Shown here in pieces: positions 3,999-29,918 of a stretch of DNA of 64,000 nt. The notes under the pieces were generated by a model that saw nothing but the letters and a program-made list of their open reading frames with translations, was not told the DNA's origin and did no database searches. Position 1 is the stretch's first letter, and each line of letters begins with the position of its first letter. The position numbers and the translations under genes were made by a program. Origin of the DNA: an uncultured Mucispirillum sp. (GTDB lineage: Bacteria > Chrysiogenota > Deferribacteres > Deferribacterales > Mucispirillaceae); the NCBI GenBank assembly GCA_944325215.1, contig CALUZC010000002.1, positions 1-64,000 of the forward strand. The letters are read 5' to 3'.

Positions 3999-4193
3999 AA
4001 GCCACCTCCTAATTTTGTCCGAACGGAAAATCCGAATGGATAAAAGGAAAGTGACTAACCACAAAACAGTCGCACTGTGTTCCGTAAATAATCTATCATC
4101 ATATCTTAAAAATAACAAGTCAAAAAAAATTATATTAATCCATATTTTAGTGTTCAGTTGCCACCCGTATATAAAAATACAGGTGATAAAACT

Positions 4194-5150: not shown

Positions 5151-5168
5151 TTTTCAATGGAGGAAAAT

Positions 5169-5513
5169 ATGAAAACAAAAATCACATTAGTAATTTTAAT
5201 GATACTTGTATCAAGTTCACTTGCTTATGCAGGTGGAGCATTACCTTTTGAGAGTGGCTTATCAAAAATAAGTAACTCCCTTTCAGGGCCTGTAGCAATT
5301 AGTATTGCTATAATAGCTTTTGCTGCAGCTGGTATTATGTATGTATTTAATCCTGATGCAACAGCACTAATTAAAGGATTAATAGGTTTATGTATTGCTT
5401 TAGGTGTTATGTTTGGTGGTAAAGTATTTGTTGATCTGATAGCAAAACCATCATCATCAGGCAATATTATACCTGTTTCATATGTTACAAAAGAGCAAAT
5501 AAAACATGAATAA
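5169..5513 (+). CDS. trbC: TrbC, conjugative pilin (VirB2-like)
   Basis: 114 aa prepilin. A signal peptide ends near SSLAYAG, followed by two hydrophobic helices typical of TrbC/VirB2. ATG 5169 is chosen because GGAGG lies just before it, within an upstream in-frame ATG at 5157. In RP4, TrbC is cut and cyclised by the TraF peptidase; a TraF homologue is present at 25562-26089, so cyclic pilin is likely here too. The translation-start region is almost identical to that of the PKD lipoprotein gene at 14457. Confidence 0.9.
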   Translation: MKTKITLVILMILVSSSLAYAGGALPFESGLSKISNSLSGPVAISIAIIAFAAAGIMYVFNPDATALIKGLIGLCIALGVMFGGKVFVDLIAKPSSSGNIIPVSYVTKEQIKHE

Positions 5514-5799
5514 CAATAGAATATATAGATTTGGTTGGAGACCTGTATTGTTTATGGGTGGTGATAGAGAATTGGTATTATTAACTGCGTTATTCTCTGG
5601 AATGATAATGTTTTATAGCTTTAATTTAATTCTATTTATAATAGCATTTATACTATTTACATTATCATTAAAAGCATTTCAACTAATGGCAAAAGCAGAC
5701 CCTTTAATGAAAAATGTTTATTTAAGACATACTAAATATAAGTCTATATATTTAGCAAAAAGTACCCCTTTTGTTATTAGTAATAAAATATATAAGTAG
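5506..5799 (+). CDS. trbD: TrbD (VirB3-like) membrane protein
   Basis: 97 aa. Inner-membrane component of the mating-pair apparatus. It has a short positively charged N-terminus (YRFGWRPVLFMGGDREL) and two adjacent hydrophobic helices around residues 25-60, as in TrbD/VirB3. The start overlaps the trbC end by 8 bp and the gene precedes the VirB4-type ATPase, the invariant family order. Confidence 0.9.
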   Translation: MNNNRIYRFGWRPVLFMGGDRELVLLTALFSGMIMFYSFNLILFIIAFILFTLSLKAFQLMAKADPLMKNVYLRHTKYKSIYLAKSTPFVISNKIYK

Positions 5800-5813
5800 G
5801 TGTAATAATTAAT

Positions 5814-8420
5814 ATGTATATGTTACTTTTAGGAATTATTGTATTTGCTACTATCATATCAGGCATATTAGTTCTATTAATATTTTTGAGATTAATAGAT
5901 ATAAATAATTTTTTTAAAACAAATACTTTTAAAAGGCGAAGCGAAGGATTTAGTGATTTACTTCAATATGATACAGTAATTGAAGATGGAATTATATTAC
6001 TAAAAAATGGTTCATTAATGTCTGGATTTTACTATAAAGCTCAAGATATGAGTGAGATGTCAAGAGATGACCAAGATGTAATGACTGCCAGAATATCAAA
6101 AGCTATTTTTGAATTAGGCACAGGTTGGACTGTTAATTTTGATGCAATAAGACTTGAAAGTCGAACTTATCCTGAAAGAGCTTTTTCTGCTTTTGATAAA
6201 CCTGTAAGTTTTGCAATAGATGAAGAAAGAAGAAAATTATTTTCACTGCGTGATACTATGTTTACAACAGAAAATTTCTTAACCGTAACATATACTCCAC
6301 CTACTCTTGTTACAAATAAAATCGTAGATATGATGTACACAAGTGATGAAAGTGGTGAAAAATTATCTTACTATGATAAAAATTTAATACATTTTAAAAA
6401 TAAACTTAAAAGTTTTTTCTCTATATTATCATCAATTTTTAAAATAGAACAATTAGGAAGAACATCTTATATATTGGAAGATGGTTCAAAACATACTCGA
6501 GACATATTCTTAGAATTCCTACATTATTGTGCAACAGGTAAAGTGCAATCAATTAATGTACCAACAGATATTAATATACCTTTAGATTCTATTATCTGTG
6601 GTGAAGATTTTCTCACTGGAATATATCCCAAAATGGGTAATTTATATATCTCTGCAGTTGCAATAGATGGATTCCCGGCAGAAAGCTATCCAACAATATT
6701 AAATAGACTTTCAGATATACCTGTAACAACAAGATTTTCTACACGGTTTATATGTATAGATAAGCTGGAAGCAGAAAAGAAATTAGAAGCTATTAAAAAA
6801 CGCTGGCAGCAAAAGCAGCGTGGTATGATGCAGGTTATTCTAAACCAGCAGCAGACTGATACAAATACCAACTGGGATGCTGTAGAAATGACTAATGATG
6901 CAATAGAAGGCATAACACTACAAAATAGTGAAAGAGCAATTTTTGGATATTATACTGCAAATATTATATTAATGGAAGAAGATCAAGAAGAACTTGAAAA
7001 ATGGTCATTAGAAATCAAAAAAATAATAAGCTCATTAGGCTTTAATGCTAGAATAGAAACCATTAATACTGTCGAAGCTTATTTAGGTTCTTTACCCGGT
7101 CATACAATAGAAAATGTAAGAAGGTTTTTTATACATTCTTTGAATTTAGGTGATTTAATACCAAAACATACAGTGTGGACAGGATATGAAAACGCTCCTT
7201 GTGATAAATTTCCAAAAGAATCACCCTGTTTGATAGAGTGTGTTACTACAGGTAATACGCCATATCACTTAAATCTCCATGTAAAAGATGTAGGACATAC
7301 TTTAATTGTTGGGCCTACTGGAGCAGGCAAATCAACATTATTATGTATGATAGCTGCCCAAGCATTCAGGTACAAAGCAGCTACAGTATTTAGTTTTGAT
7401 AAAGGTATGTCTATGTTTGCATTAAATCAAGCTTTAGGTGGCTCACACTTCGAAATAGGAAATGAAAATAGTTCTGTTTCTTTCGCCCCTTTTAATTATA
7501 TTGATACAGTAGAAGAAAGGACATGGCTTGTTTCGTTTATAGAAAATATATTACAGCTTAATAAAGTGGATATTACTCCAAACATAACAGCAAGTATATA
7601 TGATGCTATAAATCGTCTATACGATGTAAAAAAAGCACATAATTCAGATGAAGAATTTAATATTAGTATAACAGATTTTATATCTCAATTACATAATCAA
7701 ACAGTAGATTTGCAAGAAATAATGAACCAATATGATACATCAGGAGCTTATGGTGGTTATTTCTCTGGTATGAAAGATAATTTAGATTTATCTAATTTTT
7801 CTGTATTTGAATTAGAAAAATTAATGAATTTAGATGAAAAAATAATGCTTCCTGTTCTTGATTATTTATTTCGAAAAATAGATTTAAAACTTCAAGGTCA
7901 ACCAGCATTTCTATTAATTGATGAAGCATGGATTGCTTTTAAAAATCCAGTCTTTTCCAAACGAATTATTGAATGGTTAAAAGTTTTTAGAAAGAGAAAC
8001 TGCTCAGTTGTGCTTGCTACTCAAAATTTAGCTGATACATCAACAAGTGAAGCAGAAACATTATTAAGTGAATTAATAATAAGTACAGCTAGTAAAATAT
8101 TTCTTCCTAATGCTGCAGCTATTAAAGATGATTTTAAGAGAATATATCAAAAATTTGGGTTAAATGAACAACAAATAAGAATTATTGCTAATGCGATTCC
8201 TAAACGACAATATTTTCATTATACCGAAGAAGGTAGCCGATTATTTGAACTTGCTATAGGAGAATTAGCACTAAACTTTGTTGCAGTATCAACCACACCA
8301 GAAATAAATATAATAAAAAGCTATATCACTAAATATAAAGATAACTGGGTTTACAATTACTTATCTGATAAAGGTATTCAATTAGAAGATTATTTAACAT
8401 ATTACAATAGGAGTATATGA
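5814..8420 (+). CDS. trbE: TrbE, VirB4-type secretion ATPase
   Basis: 868 aa. Largest ATPase of the apparatus, powering pilus assembly and substrate transfer. It has an N-terminal membrane helix (residues 1-25), the CagE/TrbE/VirB N-domain, Walker A GPTGAGKS at residues 500-507 and Walker B LLIDEAW with D703/E704. Length matches TrbE of IncP-type systems. A second ATG lies two codons in, and a TAGGTG ribosome site precedes both. Its stop overlaps the trbF start. Confidence 0.96.
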   Translation: MYMLLLGIIVFATIISGILVLLIFLRLIDINNFFKTNTFKRRSEGFSDLLQYDTVIEDGIILLKNGSLMSGFYYKAQDMSEMSRDDQDVMTARISKAIFELGTGWTVNFDAIRLESRTYPERAFSAFDKPVSFAIDEERRKLFSLRDTMFTTENFLTVTYTPPTLVTNKIVDMMYTSDESGEKLSYYDKNLIHFKNKLKSFFSILSSIFKIEQLGRTSYILEDGSKHTRDIFLEFLHYCATGKVQSINVPTDINIPLDSIICGEDFLTGIYPKMGNLYISAVAIDGFPAESYPTILNRLSDIPVTTRFSTRFICIDKLEAEKKLEAIKKRWQQKQRGMMQVILNQQQTDTNTNWDAVEMTNDAIEGITLQNSERAIFGYYTANIILMEEDQEELEKWSLEIKKIISSLGFNARIETINTVEAYLGSLPGHTIENVRRFFIHSLNLGDLIPKHTVWTGYENAPCDKFPKESPCLIECVTTGNTPYHLNLHVKDVGHTLIVGPTGAGKSTLLCMIAAQAFRYKAATVFSFDKGMSMFALNQALGGSHFEIGNENSSVSFAPFNYIDTVEERTWLVSFIENILQLNKVDITPNITASIYDAINRLYDVKKAHNSDEEFNISITDFISQLHNQTVDLQEIMNQYDTSGAYGGYFSGMKDNLDLSNFSVFELEKLMNLDEKIMLPVLDYLFRKIDLKLQGQPAFLLIDEAWIAFKNPVFSKRIIEWLKVFRKRNCSVVLATQNLADTSTSEAETLLSELIISTASKIFLPNAAAIKDDFKRIYQKFGLNEQQIRIIANAIPKRQYFHYTEEGSRLFELAIGELALNFVAVSTTPEINIIKSYITKYKDNWVYNYLSDKGIQLEDYLTYYNRSI

Positions 8421-9145
8421 TGGAAATTTTTAAAAAAATACAAAAAAAGCATCTTACATTTAGTGAAAGTGCAAATTTTAATGCAAAAAATGTGTGGAAT
8501 TCAAGGATTAGTGAATTTTTTTGGAAATATAGGGCTTGGCAAATTTTAACTATATTATCAATGCTTATAACATTAGTTGCTATTAGTGGAATTATTTACA
8601 TAGGAAGTCAGTCAAAATTCATACCCTATATAGTTGAAGTGAATAAGTTAGGAGAAACTGTTGTTGTAGGTAAAGCACATACAGGAACTATTAAAGATCC
8701 ACGAATAATAAGAGCAAAAGTAGCAAATTTTATTGATACTTTAAGACTTGTATCTATAGATCCTGCACTTCAAAGAAACTATATATATAAGACATATGAT
8801 AGTTTAAGGAGAGGTGATCCAGCATTTGAAAAAGCTAACATCTTTTATCAGGATAATAAAACAAATCCATTTATTCTAGGAGAATCAATAAGCAGGAATG
8901 TAGAAATTACAAGCTTAAATAGACAAACTGATGAAACATATCAAATTGATTGGCTAGAAAAAACATATGATAAGAAAGGCATTCTTTTATATGTAAAAGA
9001 ATTTAGAGCATTGGTTACAGTATTTCTATCCCCTATTGATGTTGAAAGTGTAGATAAATTAATAGAGAACCCACTTGGAATATTTATAAAAGATTATAAC
9101 ATATCAGAATTAAAAACATCTGATAATATTATGATAAAGGAGTAA
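8417..9145 (+). CDS. trbF: TrbF (VirB8-like) bridge protein
   Basis: 242 aa. Bitopic inner-membrane assembly factor: about 40 cytoplasmic residues, one transmembrane helix (about 42-65), then a periplasmic VirB8/NTF2-like domain beginning FIPYIVEVNKLGE. It overlaps trbE by 4 bp and touches trbG. Recognition rests on domain architecture, the PYIVEVD-like motif and operon position. Confidence 0.93.
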   Translation: MMEIFKKIQKKHLTFSESANFNAKNVWNSRISEFFWKYRAWQILTILSMLITLVAISGIIYIGSQSKFIPYIVEVNKLGETVVVGKAHTGTIKDPRIIRAKVANFIDTLRLVSIDPALQRNYIYKTYDSLRRGDPAFEKANIFYQDNKTNPFILGESISRNVEITSLNRQTDETYQIDWLEKTYDKKGILLYVKEFRALVTVFLSPIDVESVDKLIENPLGIFIKDYNISELKTSDNIMIKE

Positions 9146-9150
9146 TGCTT

Positions 9151-10020
9151 ATGAAACTAAAAATATTATTATTAATTATGACTATAATATTGTATAAAAA
9201 TACTTATGCCCAAGATATAAGTGAAATATTTAATGAAAGCAGTAGTGATATAATTCTTACAAAAAATGAAAAAAAGGCTATTTCAATTATTAAACAGTGG
9301 CAAAATGGCAATAAAGTCTCTCCTATTACAAGAGGCAATAATGGTGAAATTGAACTTATATATGGGTTATCACAACCTCAAATATTAACTGCTATATTAC
9401 AAGTTACTGATATTCAATTTGAGCAGGGTGAATCAATTATATCTGTTCATATAGGTGATACAGCACGCTGGTTAGTTGAACATATACAGACTAATACTAT
9501 CAATGGTAATCAGGATCATTTGATTATTAAACCAAAAGAGAGTGGTTTACTTACTTCACTAATTGTTGTTACAGATAAAAGAACTTACCATATACAACTA
9601 AAGAGTAATGAGAAGTTATATTATCCTATGGTAAAATTTCATTACCCACAGAGCCTTATTATAAAATCAACCAAAAATAAAAATAATATTAAGGAAAAAA
9701 CATTATCTATGAAAGATATAGTAACTGGCTCTTATTTAAAAGATTTAGATTTTAATTATATCATAAAAGGTAATGCAAAATTTAAACCTGTTAGAGTATA
9801 TAACAATGGTGTTAAAACAATTATAGAATTACCTAGAAGTATAAATGCAAGCAATATACCTATACTTATGACTTTAGAACAAGAAAGTAAAAATCCTGTA
9901 ATTGTAAACTATAGATATCAAAATAATAAATTTATAGTAGATGCAGTATTTGAGAAAGCTATTTTAATTTCTGGAGTTGGTATTAAACAGAAAAAAATTA
10001 CTATAAGTAGGGGTAAATAA
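9151..10020 (+). CDS. trbG: TrbG (VirB9-like) outer-membrane core protein
   Basis: 289 aa. Periplasmic subunit of the outer-membrane core complex. A signal peptide ends near NTYAQD; the body has the VirB9 features IGDTARWLVE and HLIIKP and a C-terminal beta-domain. I chose ATG 9151, 8 nt after AAGGAG; ATG 9145 would be only 2 nt away. The same small leader pattern (AGG...TAATGCTTATGAAA) precedes trbL. Confidence 0.92.
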   Translation: MKLKILLLIMTIILYKNTYAQDISEIFNESSSDIILTKNEKKAISIIKQWQNGNKVSPITRGNNGEIELIYGLSQPQILTAILQVTDIQFEQGESIISVHIGDTARWLVEHIQTNTINGNQDHLIIKPKESGLLTSLIVVTDKRTYHIQLKSNEKLYYPMVKFHYPQSLIIKSTKNKNNIKEKTLSMKDIVTGSYLKDLDFNYIIKGNAKFKPVRVYNNGVKTIIELPRSINASNIPILMTLEQESKNPVIVNYRYQNNKFIVDAVFEKAILISGVGIKQKKITISRGK

Positions 10021-10021
10021 A

Positions 10022-10468
10022 ATGAAAAAATTAACTATTTTATTACTAATATTATTAGCATCATGCAGTACGAAAACTACAAATATATTAAATGTTAATG
10101 TTGATAATAGTATTTATGAAGTAATATCAAAAGATACTGTAGAACTGATAAAAAATAACATCAATATTAATAATTCAAACATAATAATAAATAGCAAACA
10201 AAATAATTTTCTTAATATTTTAGAACAAACATTAAGAATTGCTGGTTATTCAGTATTTGTTTCTACTGAACATATAATGTTAGAACAAGATGATTATAAT
10301 TTAAACTATATATTAGATGTAATTAAAAAAACTAAAGTTGAAAAAAATAAAGTTATAACTGTAAGATATAGCCTTTCATTAAAAGATAAAAGTTGTTCTA
10401 AACTTTATGAAATTAACAATAATAATGAAATATTGTATAAATCAGAATGGTACTGTTTAGGAGAATAA
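10022..10468 (+). CDS. trbH: TrbH-position lipoprotein (VirB7-like)
   Basis: 148 aa lipoprotein with signal peptide and lipobox LLASC at residues 11-15. It sits between the VirB9 and VirB10 homologues, exactly where RP4 has trbH, so a stabilising lipoprotein of the outer-membrane core is likely. The sequence is Asn/Lys/Ile-rich and I see no other motif. Name is by position and lipobox. Confidence 0.78.
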   Translation: MKKLTILLLILLASCSTKTTNILNVNVDNSIYEVISKDTVELIKNNININNSNIIINSKQNNFLNILEQTLRIAGYSVFVSTEHIMLEQDDYNLNYILDVIKKTKVEKNKVITVRYSLSLKDKSCSKLYEINNNNEILYKSEWYCLGE

Positions 10469-10469
10469 T

Positions 10470-11852
10470 ATGTCTTTTTTAGATGGTCGACTAACAGAAA
10501 TTGTAAAAAATATCAATGTAAAAAAACTAACTAATACACCAAAATTAGCAATATTAGGATTTTTGATTATAGTTTTTGGCCTGACATTAATTGTAATATT
10601 AAATGCAGATAAAAGAACAAAAGAAGAAGTAATCACCAGCGATATTAAAGTCGAAGAAACTGATGAATATGATGATAAATATGTAAAAAATCAGGCAGAT
10701 TTATTTGGATATAAAAAAAATGAAGATAATAAATTACCAAATAATCTTAAAGAAGAAGAATATAATAAAATATTTGCCAATGATCCTAGCAACAAAAATA
10801 GTGAAAAAAATAGTGAAAATGAGTTTCTAAAAGAATTTGGTTTATCTGATGAAGAAGTAAGTCAGGCTGAAAACTCACTCAACATATTACAAGGTGAACT
10901 CGATAATATCTCTAAATCTATACCAGAATTACCTGTTCTTGTATTATTAGACAAAGAAACAAATATGTATAGTATTTCTGGTATGAGTGAACGATTTTCC
11001 AATGGCAAAAAGAAAGAAGATAAATATTTAACAATAGAACAAAGGCAAGCTCTAGCTGAACAAGAGCTTATAGATGAAAATACAAAAAGACAAGAATTGT
11101 CAAATGCTTTAAAAAGTTCCACTTTAATTGTTAATATTGAAAGTAAAAATCCTGTAACCAAAAAAGACACTAATAATTCTAATACTGATATAAATAATAA
11201 AAATACTAATAAAGATATATTGGACAATGATTTTAGATTATACAAAAGTATTGAAGATAGCGTTAAGGGTGAAATTAAAACAGGCTTTGTTATACCTGCA
11301 ACATTATTAACACAAATAGAAAGTGAATTAAAAGGTATGGTTGTAGGGCAAGTAAGACAAAATGTATATGATACAGCTACAGGTGAAATGCTGCTTATTC
11401 CACAAGGCACAAAATTAGTAGGAGATTATCAAAGTGATATTCAATATGGTGCAAAAAGAATTTTTGTTAATTGGAAAAGATTAATATTCCCAAATGGTAC
11501 ATCTCTTGATATTGGTATGATGCCCGGAGCAGATATGAGTGGAACATCTGGTTTTCATGACATATATAATAATCATTTTTGGGAAATGTTTGGAAACTCT
11601 TTATTATTCTCTTTCGTTTTAGCTGGAGTTAATTTAAGTCAAACACCTGATTTATATAATCAATTTTTACCGTTATATTCAAGAGGAGCAGCAACTTCTC
11701 TAAGTGAAGGGCTTGGTCAATCATTAGGAGAAACAATGTCTCAAATGATTAGAAAAAATCTAAATATTGCCCCAGATATTACTATCAGATCTGGTTATCT
11801 ATTTAATGTTATGATAACTAAAGATATTGTCTTACCTGAATATTCAGATTAA
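10470..11852 (+). CDS. trbI: TrbI (VirB10-like) channel protein
   Basis: 460 aa. Spans the envelope and links inner and outer membranes. A cytoplasmic N-terminus is followed by one transmembrane helix (about 25-45), a long Asp/Asn/Lys-rich periplasmic linker (50-260), and the conserved VirB10 beta-barrel domain: VIPATLLTQIESE, GQVRQNVYDTATG, LLIPQGTKLVGDY and a hydrophobic antenna helix region (FGNSLLFSFVLAGV). Two bases separate it from the lipoprotein gene. Confidence 0.95.
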   Translation: MSFLDGRLTEIVKNINVKKLTNTPKLAILGFLIIVFGLTLIVILNADKRTKEEVITSDIKVEETDEYDDKYVKNQADLFGYKKNEDNKLPNNLKEEEYNKIFANDPSNKNSEKNSENEFLKEFGLSDEEVSQAENSLNILQGELDNISKSIPELPVLVLLDKETNMYSISGMSERFSNGKKKEDKYLTIEQRQALAEQELIDENTKRQELSNALKSSTLIVNIESKNPVTKKDTNNSNTDINNKNTNKDILDNDFRLYKSIEDSVKGEIKTGFVIPATLLTQIESELKGMVVGQVRQNVYDTATGEMLLIPQGTKLVGDYQSDIQYGAKRIFVNWKRLIFPNGTSLDIGMMPGADMSGTSGFHDIYNNHFWEMFGNSLLFSFVLAGVNLSQTPDLYNQFLPLYSRGAATSLSEGLGQSLGETMSQMIRKNLNIAPDITIRSGYLFNVMITKDIVLPEYSD

Positions 11853-11891
11853 GTCAGTATTATTATTTATAATAAAAAAAGGAGTATAATT

Positions 11892-12662
11892 ATGATTAAA
11901 AAACTTTTATGTATTTTATTTTTCGGTTTATTTACAAACGGACATGCTCAAATTGTAGTTGAAGATGCTTCTAACTTATTTCAAAATACAGCAACAGCAG
12001 TTAATACTGCAGCAACATTAGCAGAAATGATAAAACAGTACAAACTACTTGCTCAAGAATATGAAATGATGGTTAAAAATATGGCAGCTCCATACTTTTG
12101 GGTATTTAAAGAGGTAAATGATTTTGAAGATAATATTGAATATTACAAAGAAAAATATTCAAAATATACTGATAAAGCAGCATGGGAAGCTCATTTTGCA
12201 TCATATCTTGATCCAGATACTTATTCAACTAGTCCATGTTTTAAACTTGGTGGTTGTTCAAAAGAAGAAAATGCTAGAATAAGAGCTAATCGTGAAGCTA
12301 TGATTAAAAATGCTGGTGAAACAAGTAAAAAGTTCGTTGAGTCTTTCAGGGAATTATCTAATGAATATAAAAAAAGAACCAACATGTTAAATAAAGTTGC
12401 AGAAAATGCAAAAAGAGCTGAAGGAAATCTTCAATCACAAGCAGCTACTAATGATTATTTATATTTATTAAATTCTAATACGGAAGTATTGATAAAAAAA
12501 ATGGATGCATTCAGTGAAAGCTATAATAATATGCTTATGCTTAAATTAGAAGAAGATGCGATGAAAAAAGCAAAAAATCAAAGAGTGCTTGATGAATCTC
12601 TCAAAGTGAAAGTACCAAATGATAATCGCTTATATTTTACTGATATTAGTTCAAAAAGGTAA
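11892..12662 (+). CDS. trbJ: TrbJ (VirB5-like) minor pilus protein
   Basis: 256 aa secreted protein. The signal peptide ends near NGHAQ; the mature part is helical with the TrbJ-type start VVEDASNLFQNTATAVN and a long coiled coil. One cysteine pair (C..LGGC) may form a disulfide. In other systems VirB5/TrbJ sits at the pilus tip. It has a good AAAGGAG ribosome site. The next gene starts at its stop codon, so RP4's trbK (entry exclusion), which lies between trbJ and trbL there, is absent. Confidence 0.9.
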   Translation: MIKKLLCILFFGLFTNGHAQIVVEDASNLFQNTATAVNTAATLAEMIKQYKLLAQEYEMMVKNMAAPYFWVFKEVNDFEDNIEYYKEKYSKYTDKAAWEAHFASYLDPDTYSTSPCFKLGGCSKEENARIRANREAMIKNAGETSKKFVESFRELSNEYKKRTNMLNKVAENAKRAEGNLQSQAATNDYLYLLNSNTEVLIKKMDAFSESYNNMLMLKLEEDAMKKAKNQRVLDESLKVKVPNDNRLYFTDISSKR

Positions 12663-12667
12663 TGCTT

Positions 12668-13918
12668 ATGAAAAAGTATATACCATTAACTCTTTTATTT
12701 ATTATATTTATTCCTGATTTATCATATTCACAAACAACGATTAATTTTGATATTGTTGAAAAAATCAGAGAACAAGTTGAATTTAATTCTAATATGTGGA
12801 TAGGTCATATCAAAAATGCAGCTTTAAATTTATTTTATATACTGGCTACAATTAGTTTTATAGGTAAATTCATTATTGATATTATCTCAAAAGGTGAAAT
12901 TGATACTAAAGATAGTATTGGATATACAATAAGGTTCATATTAACTACTGGATTTTTTTACTTTCTACTTGATAATGGAGTTGAACTTGCTACTTCTATT
13001 GTATCATCATTCACCATTCTTGGAGAAAGAGCTGTTGGTTTAAAGCCTACTTTTTCTAATTTACTAAAAGTAGGCTTTGATTTACTATCTCTAGGTGATA
13101 ATCTTGGATGGAGCGATTTTGAAATAAAACTACCTTTCTTTGTTTTATCTGTTCTTACAATCGTTTTTTTAATGATTATTATGGCAAATCTTATAATCGA
13201 AGAAATAGCAGCAGCCATTATGATATATGTAGGCTTTTTTGTGTTAGCTTTTGGTGGTATGGATTATACTAAAGAAAGTGCTATAAATTACTTTAAAGCT
13301 ATATTAGGAATATCATTAAAAATACTTACAATTATTTTAATAATGGGTATTACTGTTAATATAATTAACTCATTAGAATTTGATTTCAAGATAAACACTA
13401 AAAATGAGATTGATGGTGCAATTGTAATATATCAAGCTTTAACTGTATTTCTAACAGTATTCTTTTTAGCTCTACTGTCATTGAAAATACCTGATGCAAT
13501 CTCTAATTTAGTAAGTAATGCATGGGGTAATATGTCAGGATTAACTCTTATGGGTGGCATTTCTCTTGCACAAAATACAGCACAAAAAATATCCAGTGTT
13601 ATATCAGGTTCTGCTAATGCTGGTAAAAATGCAATAACTGGGTATAAAGATTACAATAAAAATAAAGAGATTGGTGAAAAAAAGAAAGAAGCAGAAAACA
13701 GAGGGGAAGATACATCTTTAAACCCAATGTATAATAAACAAAAGAATGCAGCTGGTAAAGCTTACTATGGAGGTAAAGTTTTTGCTGCTGTATCTGATAA
13801 ACTTAGCAGTGTATTTGGAAATTCTAATGAAATAACAAACAATCCTAGTAACCAAAATGATGCCACGACCAATACAGAGGCTAATAAAGATAAGGAGGTT
13901 AAAAAAAATGAAAAATAA
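12668..13918 (+). CDS. trbL: TrbL (VirB6-like) polytopic membrane protein
   Basis: 416 aa. A signal-like N-terminus is followed by at least five hydrophobic segments (about 45-65, 90-115, 160-200, 210-235, 250-275) and then a long hydrophilic Asn/Lys-rich tail of about 120 residues. This is the TrbL/VirB6 layout for the inner-membrane channel. ATG 12668 is chosen over 12662 from spacing to AAAAGG. The end overlaps the transglycosylase gene by 11 bp. Confidence 0.92.
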   Translation: MKKYIPLTLLFIIFIPDLSYSQTTINFDIVEKIREQVEFNSNMWIGHIKNAALNLFYILATISFIGKFIIDIISKGEIDTKDSIGYTIRFILTTGFFYFLLDNGVELATSIVSSFTILGERAVGLKPTFSNLLKVGFDLLSLGDNLGWSDFEIKLPFFVLSVLTIVFLMIIMANLIIEEIAAAIMIYVGFFVLAFGGMDYTKESAINYFKAILGISLKILTIILIMGITVNIINSLEFDFKINTKNEIDGAIVIYQALTVFLTVFFLALLSLKIPDAISNLVSNAWGNMSGLTLMGGISLAQNTAQKISSVISGSANAGKNAITGYKDYNKNKEIGEKKKEAENRGEDTSLNPMYNKQKNAAGKAYYGGKVFAAVSDKLSSVFGNSNEITNNPSNQNDATTNTEANKDKEVKKNEK

Positions 13919-16519: not shown

Positions 16520-16550
16520 ATATAAAATTTTAGCCGCTAAAATTTTATAT
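16520..16550. repeat. ICE palindrome copy 2 (intergenic, 31 bp)
   Basis: Perfect palindrome of two 15-nt arms (ATATAAAATTTTAGC and its complement) around a central C. It is the longest copy of the family and lies between the two exported-protein genes. Confidence 0.85.
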
Positions 16551-17347: not shown

Positions 17348-17695
17348 TTATCTTTCTAACCCTTTATTTTTTTCTTTTTCCTTTTCCTGTTTTTTTGCTT
17401 CATCAAAAATATATTTTAAATCATAAGTTTCACCTATCTCTGTAACATCATATTTCTGAACACAATCCTTAAGCCATTTAAATTTTTCATTTATTTTATC
17501 AGTCAACATAGTAATATCATATTCAGATATAGGTGCAGTGGAAATATAACCAGAATATTGCCTATGTTCAAAACCATTTTCTTCCATAAATTTTTTTATA
17601 CTAGAATATGCTTGATGAGTATTATTAAAATGTTTAAGCAGTTCTTTTGTATCCAAATCAAAATTAATTGCTTTTTTAGTTTCTTTTTTACTCAT
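17348..17695 (-). CDS. vapD: VapD-like endoribonuclease (Cas2 fold)
   Basis: 115 aa. Matches the VapD family: an early FDLD strand (D13/D15), then a helix with AYSSIKKFMEENGFEHRQYSGY and a final WLKDCVQKYDV region. VapD of Haemophilus and Helicobacter is an mRNA-cutting RNase with a ferredoxin/Cas2-like fold, part of a toxin-antitoxin pair. It starts three bases after the upstream partner, so translation is probably coupled. Its last residues (EKNKGLER) nearly repeat the C-terminus of relaxase TraI (DKNKGIER), which is unexpected for VapD and is discussed in the findings. Confidence 0.82.
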   Translation of the reverse strand: MSKKETKKAINFDLDTKELLKHFNNTHQAYSSIKKFMEENGFEHRQYSGYISTAPISEYDITMLTDKINEKFKWLKDCVQKYDVTEIGETYDLKYIFDEAKKQEKEKEKNKGLER

Positions 17696-17698
17696 TAT

Positions 17699-18019
17699 TT
17701 ATACCCATACACAATTATAGTTCTTTTTGCAACTTTCTATTAAATCAGTATCACCTTCATTTTTATTGAGCCAAATCCATTCTTTTACATTTCTTGTAAA
17801 CCATTCTTTTTTTACTAAATTCATAAAGTTAAATATTCCAAGTGCTGCTAAATCACGCTCATTACCCTGACATATATAAGTATATTTATTTTTTTTGATA
17901 AGACCTGCATGCTCTGCCAGCTCGTCAATTTTTTGATAAAGTTCTTCTAAATCATATATACCTTCCCTTTTGATTTTATCTTCATCCATTACTATCCTTG
18001 TTCCTCTTGTATCATCCAT
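17699..18019 (-). CDS. Partner of VapD, possible antitoxin
   Basis: 106 aa, acidic in the first half, Trp-rich at the end (KEWFTRNVKEWIWLNKNEG). ATG 18019 follows TGAGGTGG at the ideal distance; an ATG four codons upstream overlaps that site. It lies directly upstream of vapD with a 3-bp gap. I recognise no domain. Position suggests an antitoxin or regulator, but it is longer than VapX, the known Haemophilus partner, so this is inference. Confidence 0.62.
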   Translation of the reverse strand: MDDTRGTRIVMDEDKIKREGIYDLEELYQKIDELAEHAGLIKKNKYTYICQGNERDLAALGIFNFMNLVKKEWFTRNVKEWIWLNKNEGDTDLIESCKKNYNCVWV

Positions 18020-20106: not shown

Positions 20107-22884
20107 TTATCTTTTTAATTCTCTTCCTTGATTCTCCTTGTTTATGTAATTATTTTTTTCTTCTGATATTAATTTGCTTTTTTCTGCATCTCTCTTTTGT
20201 ATTTTATCTAACTTTAAAGCAGACTGTAAGGATTGTTGAATATTTTTCAATCCTTCTTCTTTTGAAAAACCTGTTTTTGATATAATATCATTAAAATCAC
20301 CAGATATTTCTTTCCCATTGATTTTTGGAACAACTACAGTAACATTTTCATGTTTTGCAGCAACAGCATTAGCTGCATTTAAACCAATATTGCCCACTTT
20401 ATTTGTTAAATCATTATCAGCAGCAATAACTATATTTATTTCTGGATATTTATCTGTAAGTGCTTTTACTGTATGCTCAATATTGCTTGCACTCATAGCA
20501 GCTAGAACTTTCAATCCCGGTTCATTTGCTGCTTCATTAATACTTGCAGCAGTAGCAAATCCTTCTGTAATAATGACTGTGTTAGTATTTTTTAAATCAG
20601 CAACAGTACCATCTACAATATGAAAAGCACCGACTTTATTTGTATTTTTAGCAAATCTTTTTTCCCCATCTTCTGAAATATACTGTGCTGATTTTAATCT
20701 GCCATCTACATTAAAAAGTGGAATTGTAATAGTGTTATCTTGACCAGCATATATATTACTGGTTGGCTCTATCATTTTATTAGATAAATAAGTATGTTCT
20801 GATACAGTTTCTTTATTCATAAATTTAGCATATAATGCTTTTTCAGCTTTTTCAGTAAGTATTTTATCTGCCTGCTCTCTTTCTGCCTTTTTTGCATTAT
20901 ATAATGCTCTCATTTCAGCTTTTTCATCAGGTGTCATAGAATGCTCTTTTGAACTCCACCTGATTTCCTCACCTGTGCGGTTATTCATGAAATAGCCATT
21001 AGCCACTCCATCAGAATGAAGCACATAAAATCCAGACTGTTCTTTTCCTTTATCACCTTCTACAGATATTCTATGCTTTTGCCCATCAGCAATAACAGCA
21101 TTTTCTAATACACCAGCAGATTTAATACGATTTAAAAATTCTTCTTCAATATTTAATGGAATATCAGATTTAACTTTATTCTCTATGTTTTTGATGTCCC
21201 ATTTAAAAAATTTCTCTTTTTCTGCTTCCTGGCAATACCAGAATTTGCCCTCTTTATCCCATTCTGCACCTAATGCTTTAGCTTTTTCTCTCTCTTCATA
21301 AGGAACTGCAAGGATATATTTTTCATTTTTCATATTTACCTGTTTTTGTTGCAAATACTCTAAATATCTTTCTTCTTCTTTTTTGAAGTTTTGCAATTCA
21401 TCTTTAGGTATTATTTGGGCAGAGTATGTTTTTGCTCTATGTTCTATTGCTTCCGAAACTTTTTCTTTCCCTCCAAATTCATATTCACCAATATAAATAT
21501 TGAGATTTTCCGAAGTATGAAATTTATAGCTTAATACAAATTTAGTTTTATAATAATAAGCTTCATCAAGTTTTTCCCCATTTCTCATTCTTTCTTGAAT
21601 TTTATTTTGCTCAATATCCGCTTTTAGTAATTTATCTAAAAATTTATAGGCTTCTTCACCTTTTAAGATAGTATCATCTTTAACCCCAAAATCAAATTCA
21701 GACCATGCAAATTTAACAGTCAAATCTTTGAAAAAGCCTTTTTCTGTATCATTTTCTTTTTTCTTTTGGAGTAACTGTTCTTTTCTAGCAATTAAATCTT
21801 TTTCATCAATGCGTTCCCATTTATCAAATAAAGATAAATCCTTATCAGCTGGTACAAACCAGCAGATATTATTTCTATCCCATTTAGCACCAAGTGATTT
21901 AGCTTCATCTTTTTCAGCTTTTGGGACATTTATATAAGTAACAGAGTTATCTTTATCTATTTTATTTTCTAGTTTTTCTTTTTCCATAGTCTGCTCATTA
22001 CTGTTTATTTTTTCAAGTTCTAACTCATTTCCTAAAATAAGTTTAGCAGCTCTATCAGCTTCTTTTACTGCATTAAATAAAAATGATGGTTCATCTCTTA
22101 TTGCTTTTGCCCACGACTTTAAATAAGCAATATTATTCTTATCAGGTTCATGACCTAAACCGCATTGTGTGCCTACAAGAAAGGAAGTAATTTCTGCAAC
22201 AAGCTCCTCTTTTGCATAGCTCTCTGTTCCAAATGAACCAGACATATCACGATTATTCCTGCTTGAATGACCTGTCCAGTGTCCAAGCTCATGTAAAGCA
22301 GTTCTGTAATATTCTTCACTGCTTACAAACTGCTCTTTTAAAGGCAGAGTAATTGTATCTGTTACAGGGCTGTAATATGCTTTGTCTTGTGCTTTGTGCT
22401 TAATTTTAGCACCAGAATTATTTAAAATTTCTTCAGCTTTCTCAATAGGGTTAAAATCTATTTTTTTAGGCTCATAAGCTGGCAGTCCTTCACATTGCTC
22501 AGCATTAAATACTACACTCCATACAGCTCTTGGTTTTTCTAATTTTTCTGTAACTACAATTTCTTCACCTGTTTCTTTATTTATCTCTTTTCTAGTTTCA
22601 GTAGTTTGTAGATACATGATAGGTGTTCCTTTTTCACCAGCTCTAACTTTTGCTTCCTGCTCCGAAGCCTGCAAAAATGTAAGCCATCTACTATCTTCAT
22701 AGCCTTTTTCAGATGCTACTCTCATTAGATTTAATAAATTTATTCCATTATATTCTTTGCCACTTTTAATGTTATATGGCAGAAATCCGTTACCACTCCA
22801 TGACTTTTGCCATGGAGCTTCATTTTTTTCTATAAGGTCAGCAAATTTATTTGCTAATGTTTGGTACTGATTCATTTTATTCAT
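20107..22884 (-). CDS. traC: TraC-type primase fused to an ArdC-like domain
   Basis: 925 aa. Residues 1-~290 match ArdC antirestriction proteins: an ssDNA-binding N-domain (LIEKNEAPWQKSW) and a zincin-like peptidase domain with HELGH at 198-202. Two DUF5710 repeats follow (LGAKWDRNNICWFV and LGAEWDKEGKFWYC). The C-terminal third has a Toprim-type primase core (IITEGFATAAS, IVIAADND) as in plasmid TraC primases. It would prime the transferred strand and possibly protect it from restriction. In RP4 TraC is delivered to the recipient; the C-terminus here (ENQGRELKR) resembles that of TraI. ATG 22884 has GAGGTAG upstream. Confidence 0.88.
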   Translation of the reverse strand: MNKMNQYQTLANKFADLIEKNEAPWQKSWSGNGFLPYNIKSGKEYNGINLLNLMRVASEKGYEDSRWLTFLQASEQEAKVRAGEKGTPIMYLQTTETRKEINKETGEEIVVTEKLEKPRAVWSVVFNAEQCEGLPAYEPKKIDFNPIEKAEEILNNSGAKIKHKAQDKAYYSPVTDTITLPLKEQFVSSEEYYRTALHELGHWTGHSSRNNRDMSGSFGTESYAKEELVAEITSFLVGTQCGLGHEPDKNNIAYLKSWAKAIRDEPSFLFNAVKEADRAAKLILGNELELEKINSNEQTMEKEKLENKIDKDNSVTYINVPKAEKDEAKSLGAKWDRNNICWFVPADKDLSLFDKWERIDEKDLIARKEQLLQKKKENDTEKGFFKDLTVKFAWSEFDFGVKDDTILKGEEAYKFLDKLLKADIEQNKIQERMRNGEKLDEAYYYKTKFVLSYKFHTSENLNIYIGEYEFGGKEKVSEAIEHRAKTYSAQIIPKDELQNFKKEEERYLEYLQQKQVNMKNEKYILAVPYEEREKAKALGAEWDKEGKFWYCQEAEKEKFFKWDIKNIENKVKSDIPLNIEEEFLNRIKSAGVLENAVIADGQKHRISVEGDKGKEQSGFYVLHSDGVANGYFMNNRTGEEIRWSSKEHSMTPDEKAEMRALYNAKKAEREQADKILTEKAEKALYAKFMNKETVSEHTYLSNKMIEPTSNIYAGQDNTITIPLFNVDGRLKSAQYISEDGEKRFAKNTNKVGAFHIVDGTVADLKNTNTVIITEGFATAASINEAANEPGLKVLAAMSASNIEHTVKALTDKYPEINIVIAADNDLTNKVGNIGLNAANAVAAKHENVTVVVPKINGKEISGDFNDIISKTGFSKEEGLKNIQQSLQSALKLDKIQKRDAEKSKLISEEKNNYINKENQGRELKR

Positions 22885-23038
22885 TTTCTACCTCATCATA
22901 TCGTGCATTTAATGCATCTTCTTCTGATATTGCTGTTTCTACTTGTAAACCTAAAATATCAGCTTCGTCAGGGGTTAATTCAACCACTGCTCCCGGGATG
23001 TCTAAATCCATTAGTTTTTGTTCCAAAATTTCATTCAT
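22877..23038 (-). CDS. Small acidic protein at the traD position
   Basis: 53 aa, strongly acidic (MNEILEQKLMDLDIPGAVVE at the start). It has a GAGGTGA site, and its 3' end overlaps traC by 8 bp and carries traC's ribosome site, so translation is coupled. RP4 has traD between traC and traE, and this gene lies in the same place; homology itself is not shown. Confidence 0.7.
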   Translation of the reverse strand: MNEILEQKLMDLDIPGAVVELTPDEADILGLQVETAISEEDALNARYDEVENE

Positions 23039-23059
23039 AATTTCACCTCTATTTATTTT

Positions 23060-25561: not shown

Positions 25562-26089
25562 TTATAAATTAATAATTAGTCTTACTTCTTTTTTTATCTG
25601 GTTTTTACTAACTATTCCAAAATACCTGCTATCATAAGAATATTTATTATAATCTGATAACATAAAGTATTCATCAGCTTCCAAAATAAATTCAATATCT
25701 TTATTATATGCTTTATTTTTTAAAATGATTTCAGTATTTAATATTAATTGCCCATTAATATATACACCATTATCTTTAATAATAACTTTATCATAGGGTA
25801 AACCTAATGCTTTTTTTAAATATTTTGGTGTTCTACCGCAAGATTTATCAAGTCCAAGCCAGAATCCATTTTGTTCTGCAAATTTCATATATTCATTATA
25901 TTCAGGGCAGAAAATGTATAACTTTCCCCTTTCTATATCTTTAAAATTCCTGTTGAAATATAATCCAACAGGAAAAGAATTTGAGTAATTTATTGTAAAA
26001 AAAGAGAAAGCTATATTTAAAATTAATATTAATACTCCAATAAATAAAAGATATTTAATCAGCCTTATCAGTATCTGATATTTTTTCAT
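25562..26089 (-). CDS. traF: TraF, S26-family pilin maturation peptidase
   Basis: 175 aa. Membrane-anchored serine peptidase: one N-terminal helix (10-32), nucleophile S38 in SNSFPVGLY, general-base Lys at 92/93 before LGLPYDKV, and the DSRYFG box (153-158). In RP4 TraF removes the C-terminus of TrbC and cyclises the pilin. The gene overlaps the traG end by 35 bp. Confidence 0.93.
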   Translation of the reverse strand: MKKYQILIRLIKYLLFIGVLILILNIAFSFFTINYSNSFPVGLYFNRNFKDIERGKLYIFCPEYNEYMKFAEQNGFWLGLDKSCGRTPKYLKKALGLPYDKVIIKDNGVYINGQLILNTEIILKNKAYNKDIEFILEADEYFMLSDYNKYSYDSRYFGIVSKNQIKKEVRLIINL

Positions 26090-27953
26090 TTTCTTGTTCC
26101 TGCACTTCTTCTTTTTTTAAATTTTTTGGTTTAAGCTTATCAAGCACTCCTATTTTATCAGATTCTTTTGGTGCTGGAATACTAGCACGATAAGAAAATA
26201 CAGGGTCTTGAAAATATAAAGCTTGAACACCTTTAATTGCAGGATAACCAGCAACAAATATAAGCATATCACCTGCCCTTGTGATTTCACCTTTGGCATT
26301 TTTATCCGCACCTCTTAATCGCATACACTCATCAGGAGTTAAAAGATTTCTTTTTGTGTGTTGATAGCTTTTTGAATAATTTTTATTACTCAATAAACCA
26401 CCACTTGATGATACTGATATTTGTTCATCTACAATAGTAGTTTCACCTGTCATTTTAGATAAATATTCTGCTGTTTCGTGTTTATTTGGTGCATATGCAT
26501 TTTGTATATGGCAGTTAGAAGTTATACTCTCATTTTTACCATATTTATCTTGCAGCTGTGCTAAATCCTGCACTATTAAATATCCTTTAATACCATAACC
26601 TGCCATATATGCTAATGCTTTCTGCACTTCATCCATTTTCCCCAAAGATGGAAATTCATCTAACATTAAAAGCATTCTATGTTTATAGCTACCAGCACCA
26701 CGAATAGCATTATATTTTTTTGTATCTTTACCTTGTAGAAATCTACCTGCCTTTTCAAGAATAGAATAATCTTTAAAATTTTCACTTTGAAAAAATCTAA
26801 ATTCCGATACATTCTTTCTTATAAGCATATTAACTAACAATCTAAATAGTGGGCTTATTCTTGTTTGGTCTGATGGTTGAACCACAATATATAAAGATAC
26901 TGGTGTATCGCTATTCATAATATCATATACAGAAAAATCGGAAGTATTTGTATTTGCAGCAACTATTGGGTCTCTGTATAGTGCCAGCTCTGATTTTGCT
27001 GTTGATACAATACTTCCTGCTTCATTTTCTGGCTTATCCTTCATGTCCTGCCCTACCTGTCTAGCTACTTGATTATCAGATTTACTCATAGCTTCCCACA
27101 GGTTTTGTAGTGGCAATTCAGGGTCTGAAAGCATTCTATCAAGATATGAAAGGCTGACCTGCCCTTTTTCTTGTTTTTCTTTATCGTTAATAAGATAAAG
27201 AATACAACCAGTTAAAAGAGAATAAGCAGTTTTTACCCAGTGGTCATCAAGCCCTTTACCCATAGGGTCTACAATTAAAAGTGCTATACTTTGAGCATCT
27301 GATACTTCATTATCTCCCTTTCTTATTTCAAGTAATGGATTCCACTTTACAGATTTTTCTACCGCTGGTTCAAATTTAAGAACTTTATTATTTAATTCAT
27401 TATGTCTGTAACCTGCCGTCATAGCCCATAATTCACCTTTAATATCTGTTGCAACCAGCGAATGTTTCCAATTAACAAGAGATGGCACAATTAAGCCAAC
27501 ACCTTTACCTGAACGAGTAGGAGCATATGTTAATATATGCTCTGGTCCATTATGAATTAAAGTATATTTTTTTGGTTTTCTTAAAAATCTTTTTTCCTCA
27601 AAAGCACCAACAATTACACCCTCATTAGATAATAAGCCCATCTGTTTTATATCATTAATATCTGCCCATCTAGCTGAACCATGCAGTGTCTTATTAGCTT
27701 TTGATTTACCACGATTAATAATTAATGCTGTTAATACTACACCAAAACACAGCACTGGCAGCATGTAAAAAAATGATTTATTTACTAACTCATAACCTGC
27801 TGTGCCATGTGTTTTAAATAGCCAATCAATAGATTTCCAAAAATGATTGTATTCAATTATCCCTTTTAGCTGGTAGACAATATATATTGTAACAGCTTGA
27901 AAATATAAAATAATTGAACCAAAAAATACAAATAATCCTGTAAATGTTTTCAT
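26055..27953 (-). CDS. traG: TraG, VirD4-type coupling protein
   Basis: 632 aa. Brings the relaxase-DNA complex to the secretion channel. Two N-terminal membrane helices (about 5-28 and 60-80), Walker A PTRSGKGV (145-152), Walker B MLDEFPSLGKMD (D432/E433) and the QDLAQL segment are all present. Length is typical for IncP TraG. The gap to traI is 3 bp. Confidence 0.95.
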   Translation of the reverse strand: MKTFTGLFVFFGSIILYFQAVTIYIVYQLKGIIEYNHFWKSIDWLFKTHGTAGYELVNKSFFYMLPVLCFGVVLTALIINRGKSKANKTLHGSARWADINDIKQMGLLSNEGVIVGAFEEKRFLRKPKKYTLIHNGPEHILTYAPTRSGKGVGLIVPSLVNWKHSLVATDIKGELWAMTAGYRHNELNNKVLKFEPAVEKSVKWNPLLEIRKGDNEVSDAQSIALLIVDPMGKGLDDHWVKTAYSLLTGCILYLINDKEKQEKGQVSLSYLDRMLSDPELPLQNLWEAMSKSDNQVARQVGQDMKDKPENEAGSIVSTAKSELALYRDPIVAANTNTSDFSVYDIMNSDTPVSLYIVVQPSDQTRISPLFRLLVNMLIRKNVSEFRFFQSENFKDYSILEKAGRFLQGKDTKKYNAIRGAGSYKHRMLLMLDEFPSLGKMDEVQKALAYMAGYGIKGYLIVQDLAQLQDKYGKNESITSNCHIQNAYAPNKHETAEYLSKMTGETTIVDEQISVSSSGGLLSNKNYSKSYQHTKRNLLTPDECMRLRGADKNAKGEITRAGDMLIFVAGYPAIKGVQALYFQDPVFSYRASIPAPKESDKIGVLDKLKPKNLKKEEVQEQENEKISDTDKAD

Positions 27954-27956
27954 ACA

Positions 27957-29918
27957 TTACCTCTCTATTCCTTTATTTTTATCATTTGTCTTTTGTTGTT
28001 CTTTTTCTTTTACTAGATATGTTTTTGATACATAAATACTATTATCGTTATCTTTTTTGTATAAATAGAATTTTTGACCATTATATTCTTTGGTGGATAT
28101 TCTGTTATATGAGTTATCAAGGTTTGATAGTTCTTTAAAAGTAATTTTAGTCTGTTCTTTATTTTCAATAAAAGATTCTATATCATAGCTATCTTTTATT
28201 GGAGTATTAACAGATACAGTATCGCCTTTTTTATACTGCTTTAATAAAGTATAATCTTCTTTCACTGGCTCTTTAATATATACTGTATTGCTAATATTTG
28301 ATTTAAATTTTATTAAAAATTTATCATTATATTTTTCATATCCTTGATAAATATATTCCTGTTCTTTACCATCAAATTTAGCAAAATTTACTATTTTACT
28401 ATTCCTTTCATTAATATATGAAATAAGGTTATCCTGCTTTAAAATTTTAGCAGCTAAAATTTTTTCATTTAGCTCTTTATCTTTAAAAGTAATATCAATA
28501 TTATGAGTCGCTATAATATCTATTACTTTATTTTTAAACTCATCTGTTCCATTTAATGTATCTGGTGTAATGTTATTAGCTTTTAATATTTCAACAGCTT
28601 TTTTGATATTATTATATTTTGATGTTAGAAAAATTGAATTGCTTGTAGCTTTCAGCTTATTATTTAAAATATATGTGCCGTTTTTTGTTATTTTTAAAGC
28701 ACTGTTTTTAAGTTCTTTAAAATCACCTTTAATATAATTGATACGGCTTTCTTTTCTTTTATTTAAAACAAGTTCTGCTTTTTCATTAGTTAGTGCCTGC
28801 TGCTGTAGCCAAGCATCATAAGTGTAATATTTGTATCTATCATTTATTTTTTTTATTTCTTTTTTTCGCTCTTCTCTTAATTTTTTAAGTTTTGCTTTTG
28901 CTATAGCTTTTTTATTCATTTTGATTAATATTCTATCAAGCTCACTACTACCAGTCATTCTGCTTAAATTATCTATTATATCACCAGAATATTTAGCAGC
29001 ATCCATGTATTCATTTTTAACAACCTGCTTTTCCTGCTTTGACTTTATTTTTCTACTTGTATTTATAAAGTCATACTGCTCTTTTAAAGATAAATCTTGA
29101 TACCTTTGATATGAATTTTGAATATTATTTAAAGATTTTGACGGTTCAAATTTACCATACTTTTTTTCAAGTGAATTTAAAGAATATTCCCTTTTAACTG
29201 CACTTGCCTTTATATTTATTTTATCATCTGTTAAATTTTTAAATACTGCACCACTGCCATATTTTCTATACTCAATACCATTTTCTTTTAACTTATCATG
29301 TAAATCCTGCCATGATTTACAATCTGATAAATCAATACTCTCTACATAACTTTTAAAACTTATCTGTGTAGGTCTACTGTCAATATCATTAGCAGCAGAG
29401 CAGGTATTCTCATTGGATTTTTCATTAGAATGTGTTTGATTTAGATTATATTTGATTTCTAGTTCTTTAGCTTTTTTTGATAAAGTTTTATATGGATAAT
29501 AAGGCTCATGAATGGTATATTTTTCTGGGTTTATTTTATTTATTGCTATATGCATATGCAGGTTATCTGTATCATCATGAATAACACTTAATCTTTGGTG
29601 GTCTTTAAAACCTAAACTTTCTATAAATTCATTAGAAATATTTTTTAAAGTTTCAATATCTGGTCGTTCGTCTACACCAAAAGAAACTATTAAATGATAT
29701 GTTTTGTCTGATTTTGCATTACTCATTGACTGCACTGATTCTACATCTTCAATAAATAAATCTAAATCATTCATATCATAAATATCATCAGGCTCTATCC
29801 AAGCACCAACATTGCGAATATTTATATCCGATTCCACTTGCTCATTAGTTATATATTCTGTCAATCTTTTAAAAGATGATTTGATAGATTTATCTAATTT
29901 TGCCACTTTTACTATCAT
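27957..29918 (-). CDS. traI: TraI, MOBP-type relaxase
   Basis: 653 aa. Nicks oriT and pilots the strand into the recipient. Y22 (RLTEYITN) is the likely nucleophile; motif III is HDDTDNLHMHIAIN with H114, H121 and H123 binding metal. The N-terminal 300 residues are the relaxase domain; the rest is Lys-rich helical sequence with a later beta-rich segment. An ICE palindrome lies in the C-terminal part and codes for ILAAKIL. The extreme C-terminus DKNKGIER recurs in the VapD-like protein. Confidence 0.94.
   Translation of the reverse strand: MIVKVAKLDKSIKSSFKRLTEYITNEQVESDINIRNVGAWIEPDDIYDMNDLDLFIEDVESVQSMSNAKSDKTYHLIVSFGVDERPDIETLKNISNEFIESLGFKDHQRLSVIHDDTDNLHMHIAINKINPEKYTIHEPYYPYKTLSKKAKELEIKYNLNQTHSNEKSNENTCSAANDIDSRPTQISFKSYVESIDLSDCKSWQDLHDKLKENGIEYRKYGSGAVFKNLTDDKINIKASAVKREYSLNSLEKKYGKFEPSKSLNNIQNSYQRYQDLSLKEQYDFINTSRKIKSKQEKQVVKNEYMDAAKYSGDIIDNLSRMTGSSELDRILIKMNKKAIAKAKLKKLREERKKEIKKINDRYKYYTYDAWLQQQALTNEKAELVLNKRKESRINYIKGDFKELKNSALKITKNGTYILNNKLKATSNSIFLTSKYNNIKKAVEILKANNITPDTLNGTDEFKNKVIDIIATHNIDITFKDKELNEKILAAKILKQDNLISYINERNSKIVNFAKFDGKEQEYIYQGYEKYNDKFLIKFKSNISNTVYIKEPVKEDYTLLKQYKKGDTVSVNTPIKDSYDIESFIENKEQTKITFKELSNLDNSYNRISTKEYNGQKFYLYKKDNDNSIYVSKTYLVKEKEQQKTNDKNKGIER
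28441..28463. repeat. ICE palindrome copy 5 (inside traI)
   Basis: AAAATTTTAGC-A-GCTAAAATTTT, perfect 11-nt arms. It lies in the traI coding frame and encodes KILAAKIL. Confidence 0.85.

Follow-up and report, generated by a model that had tools for sequence, protein, structure and literature searches.

A C-terminal tag common to a VapD toxin and the relaxase of a Mucispirillum integrative and conjugative element marks the toxin as probable cargo of conjugation

Why should the toxin of a small toxin-antitoxin (TA) module end in almost the same residues as the relaxase of the mobile element that carries it? The question is raised by the window, i.e., the whole analysed stretch of 64,000 nucleotides (positions 1 to 64,000 of contig CALUZC010000002.1 from an uncultured Mucispirillum sp.), in which an integrative and conjugative element (ICE) encodes both a VapD toxin and a TraI relaxase. 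Mucispirillum is a gut bacterium of the phylum Deferribacterota, living in gut mucus. As set out below, the ICE probably exports VapD through its conjugative type IV secretion system (T4SS), which would deliver the toxin to recipient cells.

Positions 17348-18019 represent a two-gene operon on the minus strand, with vapW upstream and vapD downstream. The first-pass annotation had assigned the entire interval to VapD, which holds for 17348-17695, whereas 17699-18019 is filled by the antitoxin gene vapW. The features needed for the argument are the following.

17348..17695, minus strand: vapD, VapWD-type toxin of 115 amino acids
17348..17368, minus strand: codons of the C-terminal tag NKGLER plus stop, a match to the tail pattern
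17699..18019, minus strand: vapW, antitoxin of 106 amino acids, 3 nt upstream of vapD
27957..29918, minus strand: traI, MOBP-type relaxase ending DKNKGIER (TraI_MobP_relax, 323.8 bits, cut-off 250)
27957-27977, minus strand: codons of the traI tag plus stop, a match to the tail pattern

VapD scores 132.8 bits with the NCBIfam VapD equivalog model (cut-off 100, region 7-95) and matches chain A of PDB entry 9kan (E=1e-31), while VapW matches the VapW antitoxin in chain B of the same entry (E=2e-30). The putative catalytic residues D13 and S48 of VapD, which correspond to D11 and S46 of the Campylobacter jejuni enzyme (PMC11980593), are retained and are invariant or nearly so in alignments; VapW aligns a V and a Y with the catalytic D and S of VapD, and the pair thus follows the published VapWD rule. 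In the characterized pairs from C. jejuni and Streptococcus, VapD is toxic and is neutralised by VapW, a dead VapD relative (PMC11980593). As judged from homology, from which toxicity and neutralisation are assigned, vapW-vapD is a vapWD type II TA module of the Mucispirillum ICE. No Pfam family is found in VapD at E<=0.001, hence neither the FIC nor the BID domain of the Bep/VbhT family proper, and the neighbour of vapD encodes VapW rather than the SH3-fold antitoxin of VapXD or VapYD modules. An AlphaFold2 model of VapD (mean pLDDT 88) shows a confident Cas2-like fold followed by a C-terminal helix at residues 94-113, in whose last block the confidence drops to 58. The tag is accordingly predicted to sit at the free tip of this charged helix. 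In the crystal of the C. jejuni VapD-VapW complex, the final 20-25 residues of VapD are unresolved (PMC11980593).

The translated open reading frames (ORFs) confirm the endings that had been reported initially, namely KEKEKNKGLER for VapD, KTNDKNKGIER for TraI and NKENQGRELKR for a TraC-like protein. The last seven codons read AAA AAT AAA GGG TTA GAA AGA in vapD and AAA AAT AAA GGA ATA GAG AGG in traI and differ at four positions, three of them synonymous, exactly as claimed. When the last 25 residues of all non-homologous gene pairs of an ICE are compared, with no preselection of VapD, VapD and TraI are the top pair of the window ICE with a score of 57 against 36 for the next one (36 genes). 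None of 20,000 shuffled VapD tails reaches this score against TraI, and only about 0.01 occurrences of at least five identical residues among the terminal six are expected among all gene pairs of the ICE. The likeness of the two tails exceeds chance. Genome-wide statistics, which derive from DNA pattern searches, agree in that a degenerate pattern for tag plus stop has just three matches in the 2.55 Mb genome, one each at the ends of TraI, of VapD and of another VapD encoded on contig C7, and its reversed control does not occur at all.

The same pair also stands out in other Mucispirillum genomes, which are designated G001, G006, G007 and so on, with G000 for that of the window and C for contigs. 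VapD and TraI are the top tail pair in all three ICEs compared (score 55 against 34 among 18 genes in G001, 51 against 36 among 28 genes in G006), which are not fully independent, the window TraI being 100% identical to that of G001 and the G006 TraI 85%. The comparison across related ICEs that had been suggested with the original proposal finds the motif in both proteins of both elements: TraI and VapD end alike in NKGIER in G001 and in NKGLER in G006. The ICE-encoded VapDs of the window and G001 are only 76% identical, although their TraI proteins are the same. Within ten Mucispirillum genomes the tail pattern is found eight times, always at the end of VapD (five) or TraI (three). Over 60 genomes it is found 12 times, and by their codons the four matches in other genera would encode NNGFER, NHGLER, NQGLES and NKGLES; these were discarded, two ending very short frames and the two in -GLES not being the tag. 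Among the five tagged VapDs, simple counts on these related sequences, which do not amount to a rate test, show that 0.067 of the pair-sites in the hexamer differ in amino acid (I/L exchanges only) and 0.267 synonymously, compared to 0.185 and 0.152 in the core and 0.271 and 0.100 in the linker. The residues of the tag are held while their codons vary, which represents conservation at the protein level. In G007, which has no match to this TraI, VapD ends in NKEMEM and the tag is lost.

The 3' ends of vapD and traI are 78% identical over 54 nt. It had been stated that the match is not a fresh DNA copy, and this is right, but an old copy is possible, since the DNA likeness would fit an exchange of gene ends long ago, with purifying selection acting since then. 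The claim of a related tail on the TraC-like protein has to be abandoned for this ICE. Its tail score against TraI is 36, i.e., background, tied with several unrelated pairs of the window ICE, and the tail is not conserved, the TraC proteins of G001 and G006 ending in QKSVIER and in an unrelated sequence, respectively.

20107..22884, minus strand: TraC-like protein ending NQGRELKR, with ArdC-N, metallopeptidase, DUF5710 and Toprim domains

The expected receptor of the tag is the coupling protein TraG, whose gene lies next to traI.

26055..27953, minus strand: traG, VirD4-type coupling protein (T4SS-DNA_transf, E=3e-113; TraG-D_C)

In the mechanism proposed here, the toxin of the vapW-vapD pair would have been recruited as cargo by the conjugation machine of the ICE that encodes it, its six C-terminal residues, N-K-G-(L/I)-E-R-COOH, copying the tail of TraI at the end of the charged helix. 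With a tag that is present, common to TraI and conserved at the protein level, TraG would bind the free C-termini of both TraI and VapD, and VapD would enter the recipient together with the TraI-led strand. There, to go by the published VapWD work, it would inhibit a recipient lacking a matching VapW until the incoming vapW is expressed, resulting in immediate addiction or in pressure on non-carriers. Recipients would retain vapW alleles as immunity genes, of which the gene pattern described below may be a trace, and the alleles of vapD and vapW would diversify on an ICE backbone that hardly changes.

Shared tails are also found on other elements carrying VapW-type modules. Homologues of VapW occur in 212 records of a plasmid collection, of which 211 are from Campylobacter and 197 are typed as conjugative, and many of 42 VapWD-type loci have conjugation genes nearby, such as those for a relaxase or a coupling protein. 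Outside Mucispirillum the VapD tail matches other cargo instead of the relaxase. On Campylobacter plasmid pCC31, VapD (..KDFHGKFKEFTQKTPKNQKLKDLER) shares its tail with a DUF5710-Toprim primase (..IDFHNKLKAFKSMEKTQPEKEITR; 0/200 shuffles), and on a C. upsaliensis plasmid VapD (..MQEAVKKASQNLKPKDKSKDLNR) shares it with a Fic protein (..MQEAVKKASQNLKSKDKSKDLDR; score 102-118) and also resembles two proteins of the T4SS operon. Two VapDs and the following Fic protein of a Ruminococcus locus (L043) end in SDPLDLTG(Y/H)TSLN(R), with scores of 78 and 74. In two more Ruminococcus loci, the last 30 residues of VapD are similar to those of an AbiEii-type protein (1/200 shuffles for L049 and 2/200 for L048), which should be regarded as a lead only, because the L048 match is not significant at 25 residues. 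Over ten element groups the VapD tail fits its own element better than others (permutation P ~5e-5); in the shuffle test, four of the ten groups are at the floor, and none of 148 cross-group comparisons reaches p<=0.0025. An LPD7 protein of Helicobacter rappini ends in KTKGMER, close to the Mucispirillum tag. As controls, the VapDs of Neisseria and Riemerella plasmids extend only 3-5 residues past the fold. The VapDs of small plasmids from Klebsiella, Moraxella and Vitreoscilla carry long extensions of another kind.

Some observations on these elements stand apart from the VapD tails proper. A universal cargo ending [LIM][EDNT]R, present in 15/291 ORFs on conjugative elements versus 0/80 chromosomal ones, was rejected, as it was picked after looking and the sample is small. 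A Helicobacter cinaedi plasmid carries a remnant of the vapD N-terminus of 53 residues (L027, 37593-37754) that ends in ARIRKRR, similar to the RIRKHR of the intact VapD, and its Fic protein and the preceding regulator-annotated gene (21056-23058) share STS(N/K)(A/T)HKAKR(R/C)R. In Aurantimonas (L069, 8336-10312), a VapD-like domain is located at the C-terminus of a putative 658-residue frame ending in KRRRAARRKN, possibly a fused toxin. On pTet-type plasmids, the EexN lipoprotein and the T4SS protein in VirB5 position have near-identical C-termini of 25 residues, possibly a link between entry exclusion and its target.

L026, 20044-20322 and 29974-30960: EexN and VirB5-position pair
L029, 8022-8336 and 38469-39446: EexN and VirB5-position pair

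Orphan antitoxin genes form an array outside the ICE on contig C69 of G001 (L020, 7400-9130), in the order vapW, 22-codon vapD stub, vapW, stub, vapW and full-length tagged vapD, with both stubs cut at the same codon. The first orphan VapW agrees with the VapW of contig C7 of the window genome in 105/106 residues and its stub with the vapD there in 66/66 nt, while the second agrees with the VapW of G007 in 102/106 residues (stub, 65/66 nt). The toxin genes of the array are trimmed and the antitoxins retained. Neither vapW nor vapD was found in the stretches of up to 1.5 kb available beside the same flanking gene in G003, G004, G006, G007 and G009. The array resembles an immunity bank against VapD arriving from others and fits this role, but it also fits anti-addiction against incoming vapWD genes, with no need for protein delivery. 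The repeat unit measures 464 bp and the stubs join the next vapW leader at TTGTATAATAATAT, which hints at a specific joining mechanism.

Which explanation accounts best for the common tail depends on how its sharing, its conservation and its exceptions are weighed. Coincidental similarity between ends rich in lysine and glutamate, the genome being AT-rich, would suit the shortness of the tag and is the kind of likeness seen with TraC, but is effectively refuted for VapD and TraI by the shuffles, the expected number of pairs, the retention in three ICEs and the genome-wide exclusivity. Delivery of VapD into eukaryotic host cells instead of bacteria might be considered for an inhabitant of gut mucus, as Mucispirillum is generally known to be, and some T4SS effectors do derive from TA toxins (PMC5675462). 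This is nevertheless highly improbable in view of a conjugation module with relaxase and topoisomerase, a bacterial antitoxin partner, orphan antitoxin arrays in bacteria, and the SOS response which VapD toxins of VapWD and VapYD pairs trigger in Escherichia coli (PMC11980593). An ancient recombination that put the TraI end on VapD, the residues being kept afterwards because they stabilise the helix, dimer formation or the contact with VapW, would agree with the identity of the gene ends, with other shared gene ends on such elements (EexN/VirB5) and with the contacts of VapD helix alpha3 to VapW and the partner subunit (PMC11980593). We regard it as improbable, since the terminal six residues vary less in amino acid than the helix and linker before them, even though the confidently modelled fold stops short of them and TraI has no VapW partner, the tag has decayed in G007, and VapD tails differ completely between elements, yet match cargo of their own element. 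The tag may also dock VapD at the coupling protein or relaxosome within the donor with no transfer, coupling toxicity to the state of the machine, for example, or sequestering the toxin; sharing, conservation and element-specific matching would fit any common binding partner, not only export. Docking appears unlikely, as unrelated cargo (VapD, Fic protein, primase) share tails within elements, the orphan vapW alleles are readily understood if cells receive foreign VapD, and translocation is established for VbhT, a Fic toxin whose signal derives from a relaxase (PMC5675462).

Delivery by the conjugative T4SS therefore appears as the best reading, in which the VbhT precedent is set against gene ends exchanged for other reasons, and it is a probable rather than a secure one because several findings weigh against it. 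VapDs of the VapW type use part of the extension as their dimerisation helix, and only the terminal residues were therefore counted as tag. The expectation that the tag occurs only on ICE-borne VapDs does not hold literally, since the chromosomal copies on contig C7 of the window genome and C69 of G001 keep NKGLER outside the ICE; but both genomes also carry the ICE, and the tag is lost in G007, the genome with no match to this TraI, which is a single case. No significant partner of the VapD tail was found in H. cinaedi, H. turcicus, H. rappini and Ruminococcus L048 within the stretch examined, about 10 kb on each side of vapD except for H. cinaedi, and the MobP1 relaxase of pCC31 has no VapD-type tail. 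Exchange of gene ends is also seen elsewhere on these elements: the EexN and VirB5-type proteins of pCC31 share a tail, so sharing exceeds likely T4SS cargo, and a zeta toxin and TraI of C. fetus (L080) do so next to insertion sequence elements, the presumed cause. Apart from TraC, what remains of the initial interpretation is a conserved tag of VapD and relaxase beside a T4SS and its coupling protein, with independent parallels in Campylobacterota and Bacillota. A tentative extension, to which we give somewhat less than even credence, is that VapW-type VapDs as a class are weapons or addiction proteins injected together with DNA by conjugative elements of several phyla, each element writing its own short C-terminal address on unrelated toxins (VapD, Fic, perhaps AbiEii) and helpers, and that cells hoard orphan vapW genes for immunity.

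The closest known system is VbhT/VbhA of plasmid pVbh from Bartonella schoenbuchensis. Translocation of VbhT, in which a Fic toxin is joined to a BID domain of relaxase origin, was demonstrated by CRAfT, and the authors of that work, who described the majority of T4SS signals as short with a positive charge, expected further TA toxins of this kind (PMC5675462). Like VbhT, VapD is a TA toxin encoded together with a conjugative T4SS and a relaxase, with a C-terminal signal almost the same as in the relaxase and an adjacent antitoxin. In contrast to VbhT, which combines Fic with a whole BID domain, VapD is a nuclease with a tag of about six residues, and its transfer is predicted from sequence. 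VapD is thus not a member of the Bep/VbhT family, but would work analogously to VbhT if delivered. The published VapWD system (PMC11980593; PDB 9kan) has toxin, antitoxin, gene order, the unresolved C-terminus and vapW/vapD duplications in common with the present one; that text never uses the term secretion and leaves the duplications and the C-terminal residues unexplained. In C. fetus, Fic proteins encoded near T4SS genes share a C-terminal KEKE motif, proposed as an unvalidated translocation signal (PMC5651007), and are likewise TA toxins with a common short motif, but they are Fic proteins instead of VapD and the relaxase is not mentioned there. F-type conjugation moves plasmid-coded ParA, ParB and SSB into recipients (PMC8406263, PMC11288057), yet this is an F-type system, and the abstracts of these reports name no VapD. 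In a literature search on VapD with conjugation and type IV secretion in Campylobacter, no title or abstract claims VapD as cargo. With subscription papers and preprints outside the search, three things appear to be new: VapD as cargo, a tag as short as about six residues and an occurrence that spans three phyla. The novelty announced at first would lie in VapD and the short tags, whereas the principle of a TA toxin with a relaxase-derived T4SS signal is already known from VbhT (PMC5675462).

If delivery is true, a function would be found for a toxin family whose role and antitoxin duplications have been called unclear (PMC11980593), and interbacterial toxin delivery by conjugation, known from Fic-BID fusions, would come to include VapD and tags only a few residues long. 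Element-specific shared C-termini would then offer a simple computational handle on the cargo of conjugation machines, whose T4SS signals are otherwise hard to predict (PMC5675462), and a testable prediction would follow for the common pTet-type Campylobacter plasmids.

The remaining genes of the window ICE include an integrase and the conjugation cluster, and further genes for a KorB/ParB-like protein, a ParA-like protein and a topoisomerase; TraI itself contains Relaxase and TraI_middle domains.

257..1174, minus strand: tyrosine integrase of the ICE (Phage_integrase, E=6e-28)
4158..13918, plus strand: conjugative T4SS genes for a VirB11-type ATPase, VirB4, VirB8, VirB9 (CagX), VirB10 (TrbI) and VirB6 (TrbL)
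within 4158..13918, plus strand: VirB2-, VirB3- and VirB5-like ORFs, assigned by position only

A palindrome, TTTTAGCNGCTAAAA, occurs five times in the ICE (3508-3522, 16528-16542, 23067-23081, 25434-25448 and 28445-28459), and four of these copies contain TTTAGCSGCTAAA, presumably the KorB operator of IncP plasmids. A ParB-like protein with a KorB domain is encoded by the ICE at 1962-2981, and the palindromes probably represent a KorB-type regulon, with some of the sites intragenic and encoding ILAAKI. Elsewhere in the genome the palindrome is present in only two copies, both outside the window on contig C57 (positions 5166 and 6120), which may mark a second element.
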